From NCBI RefSeq assembly GCF_000591035.1, contig NC_022521.1:1178001-1242000 (forward strand): DNA of 64,000 nucleotides, in the 5' to 3' direction. Under the pieces are notes generated by a model, which was not told where the DNA came from, did not search any database, and saw only the letters and a list, made by a program, of their open reading frames with translations. This DNA is from Aeropyrum camini SY1 = JCM 12091. GTDB lineage: Archaea; Thermoproteota; Thermoprotei_A; Sulfolobales; Acidilobaceae. The position numbers were made by a program, and so were the translations under genes. Shown one piece after another: positions 3,300 through 6,316 of this stretch. Position 1 is the stretch's first letter. Each line of letters starts with the position of its first letter.

Positions 3300-4490
3300 T
3301 TATTGTTGGCAGACTTCTATATCACGCTTCTTCAATATATATTCAATTATCCTGTCTATATCAGCCACTGCGGGGCTCTCGCCAAGCAGCTCTTCAACTT
3401 CCGCTAGCCTCTTCTTTACTAGACCATCGATTAGTATAGTAATCTCTATAGTCCTACCCTTAACCTCCCTACGGTAAACCAGCAGGAGCAGAGGATAGTA
3501 TACAATCCTATATCCCTTCACCCCGCCGAAGGCTGACAGTATCTTAACTATATTGTGCATGCTAACACGGGGCGTCAGCGTGAAACCACAGCCCGGTCTG
3601 CCGACAGCCTTAAACCCCGCAAACTTGGACTCGAGGATCCTCTCTAGCTGAGCCGCCTCCAGGGGCGGCTCGGCCAGGGTAAATATGTCCATGCCTACGG
3701 GCTCGACGAGCCTCTTTTCAACTAGCACCTCTATAATGCTTTCTATATCAACATTGCCGCCGAACTCCTCCTTAAGCTCCGCTATGCTCGCCTCCCCAAG
3801 CTCGGCTATTCTCTTTAGAACCGCCACCGCCTCGTTGCTCAGCAGACCCAGCCCCTTCCACTCCCCCAGGATCCTTAGCCCCTCGTCATAGTGGATTGTG
3901 CTTCCTGTTATGCCGTCGAAGCATAGCACAGCTGTCGCATGCTCAAGAGCCTCCTCCACGAAATCAACCGTGTGGAAATCCACGTCGAAGCAGTAGAGCG
4001 GTATGAATGCTGTCGACGCGCCCACGAACTCCCCCTTCTTTATGATCCTCCCCCTATGTTTTTCAGCAAGCTTCGCGACATCCTCAACACTGACGTTAGG
4101 CCTATAGTATAGAGTCTCAACCCTCTCCGCCTCCACAGTACTTGCAGAAACCATAGCTTCAATCTCATCCCTGAACACAAAGTCTATAAAACCGAACTTG
4201 CCTGCAAGGCTCGCCGGTACGGACTGGTCGGAAATAATAACTACCGCCTTATCTATAACACCGTCTTTCCAAGCAGCATACGCCCTCCCAATACAAGAGT
4301 AGAAGTCGCCACCACAGTCTACGAGGAACCCTATCCTTATCCTGGTAACACCGACGTTAGCCTCCACTATGATATCCATAGCGTGCTCGTTCTCCTTTAC
4401 AGTATAACCTTCTCCACTATAAAACTCCTTAATTACGCTTGCTACACGCGACGCAAAAGGCCTGTCAAGAGGGCCTCCAGACATCACCAT
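3300..4490 (-). CDS. Unknown protein with nuclease-like N-terminus and winged helix
   Basis: A 396-residue protein that I cannot place in a named family. Residues about 15-120 have the order of elements of a restriction-endonuclease-like fold: GYTVKEN, then DIIVEA, RIGFLVD and AVVIIS strands, but no complete D-(E/Q)xK set is evident. Residues about 215-265 look like a winged helix (AELGEASIAELKEEFGG, then IIEVLVEKRLVEP). The C-terminus is another alpha/beta segment. It ends 5 nt after the convergent upstream gene. A DNA-binding or processing role is only a guess from these two regions. Confidence 0.7.
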   Translation of the reverse strand: MVMSGGPLDRPFASRVASVIKEFYSGEGYTVKENEHAMDIIVEANVGVTRIRIGFLVDCGGDFYSCIGRAYAAWKDGVIDKAVVIISDQSVPASLAGKFGFIDFVFRDEIEAMVSASTVEAERVETLYYRPNVSVEDVAKLAEKHRGRIIKKGEFVGASTAFIPLYCFDVDFHTVDFVEEALEHATAVLCFDGITGSTIHYDEGLRILGEWKGLGLLSNEAVAVLKRIAELGEASIAELKEEFGGNVDIESIIEVLVEKRLVEPVGMDIFTLAEPPLEAAQLERILESKFAGFKAVGRPGCGFTLTPRVSMHNIVKILSAFGGVKGYRIVYYPLLLLVYRREVKGRTIEITILIDGLVKKRLAEVEELLGESPAVADIDRIIEYILKKRDIEVCQQ

Positions 4491-4716: not shown

Positions 4717-4917
4717 ATGGAGGGTTCAAAAACACAGCGAAAGGGGGATAGAGAAGGTTATAAGACGTTGATAACAGAGGGTTCCCTGTTCCGAGTCGCC
4801 ACGATAGATGGCATGCTGCGATGCCCCCTCTGCGAGGCAATATTTTCCACTCCCCGAGACCTGGAGTACCACATCTCAGCCTACCATGCCTACACACTAG
4901 GTAGGAAAAGCAGGTGA
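4717..4917 (+). CDS. Small C2H2 zinc-finger protein
   Basis: A 66-residue protein with one C2H2 finger: CPLC, twelve residues, then H-x4-H (EYHISAYH). The N-terminus is basic. Single-finger proteins of this size are common in Crenarchaeota and are thought to bind nucleic acid, but this one has no assigned role. A longer antisense frame (4556-4924) covers it and is rejected because only this frame shows a recognisable motif. The gene is followed about 60 nt downstream by the H/ACA RNA candidate. Confidence 0.7.
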   Translation: MEGSKTQRKGDREGYKTLITEGSLFRVATIDGMLRCPLCEAIFSTPRDLEYHISAYHAYTLGRKSR

Positions 4918-4975
4918 TCTTCAACCACTAAGCCAGATATACCCCCAGAAGCACTTCATTATTAAAACTATGGAC

Positions 4976-5051
4976 GCCCCGCCGGTCTCACGTCCGCCGA
5001 GACCCCCAAAGGGGGGATGAAGATGAAGGCGGATCGGTAAGGCGGGGTACA
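4976..5051 (+). ncRNA. Box H/ACA guide sRNA candidate (23S rRNA target)
   Basis: The sequence folds as an archaeal single-hairpin H/ACA RNA. Lower stem CCCCGCC (4977-4983) pairs with GGCGGGG (5041-5047). Upper stem GTCCGCC (4992-4998) pairs with GGCGGAT (5028-5034). An apical stem of five C (5003-5007) and five G (5011-5015) is flanked by GA-rich strands (GAGA and ATGAAGATGA) like a kink-turn. ACA follows at 5049-5051, 14 nt after the upper stem, the canonical spacing. The pocket strands GTCTCAC (4985-4991) and CGGT (5035-5038) are complementary to ACCG-UC-GUGAGAC, which I recall as conserved archaeal 23S rRNA near the peptidyl transferase centre. Fold and spacing are seen; the target is inferred. 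Confidence 0.75.
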
Positions 5052-5458
5052 AAGTAATCCTGGATTGAATTAACGTTACTTCTCTAAGCTTATGGCGAGA
5101 GCATAGCTAGCAGGCTAGAATCCGGTGTCTTGCCTAACTCCCCATATCATCCCCTCGAACTTTCACGTTACGCATTGGCGGTGGCTATCATGGAGCGGTA
5201 GAAACCCTGTTTAAACGGTCATCTAAAACATCATTCCTGTCCAAGTAAACCTGAGAGTATCGTGTTAACTGAATAATGATATAACTGCGTGAGATTTACT
5301 CTTCATCTAGATAGGGAAGTCCCTGGAGATGGGGAGTCCCTAGCCCGGGCACGCGCCGCAGGCCCACATTCCAGGGGCCGATGGGCTTGTCGAGCCGGAT
5401 CCGACTGTTTCCTCCATATCCCCGTGGACTATAGTGGTTGTTGCTTGTCGGCCCCTGC
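5052..5458. other. Gene-free stretch with a long-range inverted repeat
   Basis: No convincing gene is seen between the H/ACA candidate and the end of nadE. The main structure is a perfect 10-bp inverted repeat, CAGGGGCCGA at 5372-5381 and TCGGCCCCTG at 5448-5457, which ends directly after the nadE stop and could be part of a terminator or a structured 3' region of that minus-strand transcript. The first half is AT-richer and shows no ORF of note. Confidence 0.4.
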
Positions 5459-6316
5459 CTACGTGCCGCCGGCCCGCCTGTGATACCTTTTCACTTCCTC
5501 CAGCGAGGGGGAGGCTGGAGGCGAGCGCTTGTGGCTACTGGTTTCATGGAGGAGTCTGACCCTTTCGACTTTGGACCTGTCCAACCCGGTTACCGTGGGG
5601 ATTTCTTCCCATGGCACGTTAAGATCGAACCTGGCATAGAGTATAATATCAATCTCGTTGTACGATAGGCCAAGCTCTGCTTCCGCCTCATGACCCCTCC
5701 ACAGCCTCGGGCTGCTGGGCTTGTAAGCTATATCCCTGGGCACGCCCATAAGCTCTGCGAGCTTCCTGACCTGAGACTTATATAGAACCGTCAGCGGTGC
5801 TATGTCGCATGCAGCATCACCGTACTTTGTGAAGTAGCCTATTAGATACTCGCTCCTATCGCCAGTGCCTAAAACAAGCTTACCCAGCTTGTTTGCATAA
5901 TAATATAGTACGTTGGCGCGTATTCTAGCCCTAAGGTTTCCAACCGGGACTCTATCTTTCTCCTCATACTCGTAGATTGGTATGGTTGAAGTATACACCA
6001 TAACTACGGGTGAGATGTCTATTACCGCATGTTCAACACCAAAACTCCTAGCAAGCCTCAGAGCGTCATTCACATCCTTCTCGGGAGTAACCTCGCGATC
6101 CGGCATTACAAGGGCTGTGACCCTATTGCTTCCTACGGCGTCTACGGCTAGGGCCAGTGCGAGGCTGGAGTCGACACCCCCGCTTATACCGACAACATAG
6201 CCCGAGGCTCCTGAGGCCTCGAGATATGCCTTGAGGAACTTTGTGAGAACATTTCTCACGCCATTGTAATCCATGTCAACGACATCGTCTATACTTACCT
6301 TATAGTTGACAGCCAA
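5459..6316 (-). CDS. nadE: NAD(+) synthetase (ammonia-dependent type)
   Basis: Converts nicotinic acid adenine dinucleotide to NAD with ATP. The PP-loop motif SGGVDSS lies near residue 46, and the NAD synthetase signature LGTGDRSEYLIGYFTKYGDAACD near residues 144-168. At 285 residues it has only the synthetase domain, with no glutaminase domain, so it should use free ammonia or an unlinked amidotransferase. It lies with coaBC on the same strand (85 nt gap), a cofactor-biosynthesis pairing. NadM, the preceding step, is encoded at 24.8 kb in this window. Confidence 0.95.
   Translation of the reverse strand: MAVNYKVSIDDVVDMDYNGVRNVLTKFLKAYLEASGASGYVVGISGGVDSSLALALAVDAVGSNRVTALVMPDREVTPEKDVNDALRLARSFGVEHAVIDISPVVMVYTSTIPIYEYEEKDRVPVGNLRARIRANVLYYYANKLGKLVLGTGDRSEYLIGYFTKYGDAACDIAPLTVLYKSQVRKLAELMGVPRDIAYKPSSPRLWRGHEAEAELGLSYNEIDIILYARFDLNVPWEEIPTVTGLDRSKVERVRLLHETSSHKRSPPASPSLEEVKRYHRRAGGT

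Follow-up and report, generated by a model that had tools for sequence, protein, structure and literature searches.

A conserved RNA of Aeropyrum camini that is very probably a box H/ACA guide for position U2593 of 23S rRNA

The DNA analysed here, the window, is a stretch of 64,000 nucleotides, bases 1178001-1242000 of the single-contig, 1,595,994-bp genome of Aeropyrum camini. At window positions 4976-5051 of the plus strand, in the intergenic space between two open reading frames on opposite strands, lies a segment that an earlier reading of the sequence alone had called a box H/ACA sRNA; the letters and the coordinates are as that reading had them. The upstream neighbour is a 66-aa zinc-finger-like frame (4717-4917, plus strand), which ends at 4917, and the downstream neighbour is an NAD synthetase-like frame on the opposite strand (5459-6316). 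The zinc-finger-like frame recurs near the segment in several Acidilobaceae, and a 396-aa frame at 3300-4490 on the minus strand remains near it in many relatives.

When positions 4976-5051 are folded as RNA, a free energy of -40 kcal/mol is obtained (z = -3.55; one of 200 dinucleotide shuffles is equally stable), and the predicted fold recovers the lower, upper and apical stems. These had been proposed as nested, and their pairs are supported by the covariation described below. The hairpin is of the type stem, internal loop, stem, with a terminal ACA. Its lower stem pairs 4976-4983 with 5041-5048, and its 8 bp are within the 7-9 bp expected for archaeal box H/ACA guides. The internal loop contains two pocket strands, GUCUCAC on the 5' side (4985-4991) and CGGU on the 3' side (5035-5038), and above it the upper stem pairs 4992-4998 with 5028-5034, with an outermost pair, G4992.U5034, that becomes G.A in many relatives. 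There follow GAGA (4999-5002), which is the non-bulged side of a k-turn region, the apical stem-loop CCCCC-AAA-GGGGG (5003-5015), where 5003-5007 pairs with 5011-5015, and the 3' strand of the k-turn region (5016-5027). The ACA box, at 5049-5051, stands 14 nt past the upper stem, as had been claimed (15 nt if G4992.U5034 is left uncounted), inside the distance of 14-16 nt that archaeal H/ACA RNAs by rule have between the closing pair of the upper stem and the ANA box (PMC4652768), and an ANA is present in nearly all homologues.

Clear blastn matches occur in about 40 genomes from a search of 60 relatives, and these matches start and stop at 4976-5051. For 22 homologues, a hand-specified structure was tested on an alignment made from sequence only: 98% of the cells are paired, 10 of the 18 pairs change on both sides, the covariation was reached by none of 500 shuffles, and sliding the partners abolishes the signal. 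The full homologue set has 87 places in Thermoproteota, 84 of them clear. Conservation of the stems in related genomes had been set beforehand as one of three points on which the claim could fail, and it was found: the 87 sequences have compensatory changes in 15 of the 18 pairs (226 cells), in an alignment that leans towards the structure because it was fitted to the covariance model. By stem, such changes occur in five of the eight pairs of the lower stem (98% of its cells paired), in all six inner pairs of the upper stem and in all four modelled pairs of the apical stem. Fold, ACA spacing and covariation all agree with the box H/ACA assignment.

A covariance-model search, which had been proposed as a check, came out differently for existing and for new models. 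The archaeal H/ACA models of Rfam gave no match, and neither did any other model of Rfam 15, at the gathering score or with E up to 5. In the class, a model built from the 22 aligned homologues, R1, has matches in 108 of 165 genomes, and its match in the A. camini genome, 1182975-1183052, corresponds to window positions 4975-5052. A second model, R2, from which the loci L105, L106 and L107 were left out, matched 63 of the 397 genomes from the phylum, almost all of them from the same order and a few from other lineages. When the pocket and stems were written as an exact pattern with two gaps, 83 stretches were found among 84,980 prokaryote species genomes, with titles that are all archaeal and all from hyperthermophilic groups (Aeropyrum, Acidilobaceae, Caldisphaera, Pyrodictium, Staphylothermus, Thermosphaera, Thermogladius, Ignisphaera, Geothermarchaeota, Methanomethylicota and others). 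A chance hairpin in a G+C-rich spacer could be suspected from the GC-rich sequence and from a fold z-score that by itself is moderate, but it is already refuted by the covariation, the family-wide conservation and the archaea-only pattern matches, which leave it a negligible probability. The segment is a conserved RNA, beyond chance.

The pocket had been predicted to pair on both sides with ACCG-UC-GUGAGAC, placed near E. coli position 2593 of 23S rRNA and close to the peptidyl transferase centre, and an alignment with the species' own 23S rRNA had been asked for. The 23S gene of A. camini holds GACCGUCGUGAGACAGGUCG, with the target core GACCG-UC-GUGAGAC, and both pocket strands fit it, with 7+4 Watson-Crick pairs flanking an unpaired UC. 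Counted directly along rrlB of E. coli K-12, the U of GUCGUGAG is position 2593; the target U itself is at genome position 1161293 on the minus strand. When every uridine of the organism's 23S and 16S rRNA is scanned, the U2593 equivalent is the sole one with at least 3+3 pairs. The 7+4 pairing at this site has an energy of -21.8 kcal/mol; nowhere in 128 kb of window DNA, counting both strands, is a value better than -16.3 kcal/mol reached. Among 3000 shuffled pockets, 14 were equally good.

The core CUCAC of the 5' pocket strand is present in 75 of the 84 clear homologues, and CUCAC together with CGGU in 70; across these 84 the pocket letters are kept while the adjoining stems are rewritten. 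In some relatives the fit of the right strand is extended, CGGUCU with AGACCG, and the 23S target is present in nearly all relatives that have the guide.

Apparent 23S introns adjoin the target site in three relatives, G059, G029 and G085 (L053 near 4772, L054 near 4624 and L159 near 1515, respectively), and in G085 it seems that two introns leave the guide target itself as a mini-exon of about 13 nt. As ACCGUCGUGAGAC is intact in the precursors of all three, the guide could act there before splicing.

From the structure, the conservation and the two-sided fit, we consider it very probable that 4976-5051 is a box H/ACA sRNA that guides pseudouridylation of 23S U2593, and that it is the functional counterpart of Pab91 of Pyrococcus abyssi. 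Natural changes of target and pocket bear on this assignment. In the three Sulfolobaceae genera examined, the 23S rRNA has GUCGCGAGAC at the target, which breaks the guide-target duplex, and no guide with the present pocket was found in any Sulfolobaceae genome scanned with R1 and R2. A compensated guide, sought there as TCTCGC...CGGT...ACA, gave 5 matches in 3 genomes, and the reversed control gave 18; judged by eye, none of the 5 has H/ACA stems. As far as the genome sequences tell, this is a pattern of co-loss of guide and target, not of compensation.

Mismatched pockets, with CCCAC, CACAC, CUCGC or an altered right strand, occur in 14 of the 84 homologues, and the 23S target is unchanged in these where it was checked. 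CCCAC occurs in some Desulfurococcaceae and one other family, and CACAC in family f2; members in which CACAC or CCCAC stands for CUCAC are L109, L114, L118 and L131 (all f2) and L128, L132, L144 and L067. When compensated rRNA targets were sought for the drifted pockets of f2 and f9, with partial coverage of 16S, no better rRNA site was found. The drifted-pocket homologues may be retargeted or decaying. In family f6 and part of f2 the 23S target is present and the guide is undetected by the models, which may reflect insensitivity of the models.

These drifted pockets, opposite an unchanged 23S site, are what would be expected if the RNA were an H/ACA guide with another main target, such as a tRNA, 5S rRNA or an mRNA, and if its match at U2593 were secondary; archaeal H/ACA guides for tRNA are also known (PMC4652768). 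Yet in most homologues both pocket strands are fully complementary to the 23S site, the same uridine is a proven pseudouridine in Pyrococcus, and the guide is absent where the target has changed, as in Sulfolobaceae, so that another main target is highly improbable. The Sulfolobaceae co-loss and the drifted pockets make the link between guide and target testable by rRNA mapping alone.

Three weak model matches (L106 201-278, L107 201-273 and L105 301-373) share the GC lower stem and ACA of the family but have different pockets, and judging from these features they are probable H/ACA guides for other targets. The Sulfolobaceae match among them, L105, was tried as a candidate and rejected: it is H/ACA-like, but its pocket is another one and has no good site in its own rRNA stretch.

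For a guide of this class, the genome should encode the protein partners. Cbf5, Nop10 and L7Ae all have matches above the curated cut-offs, and Gar1 has a match slightly below its cut-off (E 3.9e-6; 27.3 bits versus 29.3). Cbf5 is matched across two neighbouring open frames, in agreement with the report of an intron in the Cbf5 gene of Aeropyrum pernix (PMC2738675). Upstream of the RNA, 83 homologous regions aligned at its first base pair have an A+T content of about 80% at about 28-37 nt, with a second rise at 4-12 nt. An archaeal TATA box with its initiator region would be expected to give such peaks, and in the window they point to a probable TATA-type promoter element at 4938-4948 (plus strand), which precedes the lower stem by about 28-38 nt. 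The profile suggests an independent gene on the sense strand.

Transcription, RNP assembly and modification of U2593 are what we infer from these features, in the following order. The locus would be transcribed as a one-hairpin box H/ACA sRNA, L7Ae would bind its k-turn, and Cbf5-Nop10, possibly with Gar1, would bind the lower stem, the ACA and the upper stem. The internal-loop pocket would then capture 23S rRNA through duplexes of GUCUCAC with GUGAGAC (7 bp) and of CGGU with ACCG (4 bp). The U-C between these duplexes would stay unpaired in the pocket, and Cbf5 would isomerise that U, the equivalent of E. coli U2593, to pseudouridine, giving a modified base that adjoins the peptidyl transferase centre.

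The GA-rich strands had been described as kink-turn-like, and the features above the pocket are compatible with this: a three-nucleotide bulge, GAU, is followed by a GA that faces another GA, next to a covarying stem. The 3' strand, GAUGAAGAUGAA (5016-5027), contains the motif of a three-nucleotide bulge, GA and A twice, as two overlapping half-motifs (GAU-GA-A) opposite GAGA. By a loose pattern, this tandem GAUGAA form is found in 77 of the 84 homologues, and GA(G/A)A on the opposite side is conserved in most of them; a single copy is found in Pyrodictiaceae (L066, L068, L121) and in contigs labelled Geothermarchaeota. Read with the first copy, the k-turn sits directly against the covarying apical stem, at 11 layers from the pocket (10 without the outer G.U or G.A pair), and read with the second it is at 9 layers. 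Counted by hand, the one copy in Pyrodictiaceae lies at 9 and that in the Geothermarchaeota-labelled contigs, for example L182, at exactly 10. For Pyrococcus guides, 10 layers between pocket and k-turn are reported to be needed for activity (PMC4652768); the Aeropyrum stem below the k-turn has 9 or 11 layers when the outer G.U is counted and 10 only without it. It is possible, but rather unlikely, that the doubled k-turn (GAUGAA-GAUGAA opposite GA-GA), which the family has in most lineages of the order, allows L7Ae two binding registers or room for a second copy. If it does, archaeal H/ACA RNPs have a variant architecture here. The k-turn region is the only part of the RNA that could be a new variant.

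A k-turn may also serve other purposes, since L7Ae binds k-turns in mRNA leaders too (PMC6298567), and the locus could then encode a conserved L7Ae-binding RNA that is no pseudouridine guide, such as the leader of an mRNA or a sponge for L7Ae. Against this, no ORF of at least 50 aa begins close downstream on the same strand, the flanking genes vary between relatives, the ACA is at the correct distance and the pocket fits its target. Such a role is less probable still than another main target, and the guide for U2593 remains the preferred reading.

The target site has a precedent. When the P. abyssi pseudouridine sites 2585, 2588, 2603, 2672 and 2685 are laid on the A. camini 23S rRNA by their spacing, there is a single solution, in which 2685 is the guide's target U; among seven 23S genes tried, 2685 falls on the target U in five, and the remaining two have no such placement. 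The Pab91 H/ACA RNP targets P. abyssi U2685 in vivo and modifies it in vitro as well (PMC6138745). With 2685 as the equivalent of E. coli U2593, the site is already known as an H/ACA target in another archaeal phylum. Pab91 and the present RNA are of the same class, share the 23S uridine (by spacing; PMC6138745) and are both single hairpins with an ACA. Pab91 differs in its apical K-loop (PMC3726423), in the place of which the present RNA has a closed apical stem and, internally, a k-turn region in which GAUGAA is doubled. In Archaeoglobus fulgidus the H/ACA sRNA Af46 is listed as guide for L2639 (PMC4652768), and the spacing of 38 between its L2601 and L2639 would fit E. coli U2555 and U2593 by position. 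The Pyrobaculum RNAs sR201-sR210 are likewise Thermoproteota guides with an internal k-turn. Of these, sR201 and sR202 are canonical and have a lower stem of 8 bp (PMC4652768), but most of the Pyrobaculum H/ACA-like sRNAs have no lower stem, whereas that of the present RNA is GC-paired and very stable; in Thermoproteales no counterpart of the present family was identified.

The Rfam families HgcE (RF00060), HgcF (RF00058), HgcG (RF00064) and snoR9 (RF00065) are archaeal H/ACA guides as well, and Pab91 is named without an Rfam entry in PMC4652768. The present RNA is a real but ordinary member of the H/ACA class that is absent from Rfam, and it leaves the understanding of the H/ACA system unchanged. 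Archaeal genomes were reportedly screened for H/ACA RNAs by Mueller et al. in 2008, and earlier computational screens of this kind may already have listed this RNA, including its A. pernix copy. Few guides have been tested in Thermoproteota and Rfam has none for the U2593 site; what is added here is a guide, with a model supported by covariation, for a predicted pseudouridine close to the peptidyl transferase centre in much of that phylum.

A C/D box-like sRNA lies 270 bp downstream of the H/ACA RNA, at window positions 5325-5407 on the plus strand; a search of it in Rfam gave no match. Its two guides, CCCUAGCCCG (5338-5347) and CUUGUCGAGCCGG (5386-5398), exactly complement two sites in the organism's own 16S rRNA, GGGCUAGGG at about 613 and CCGGCUCGAC at about 550. 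Its box D is CCGA, and its box C, GAUGGGG, is degenerate here and reads AUGAGGA in the relative G004. In about 20 relatives the C/D box-like sRNA adjoins the H/ACA RNA, in either orientation.
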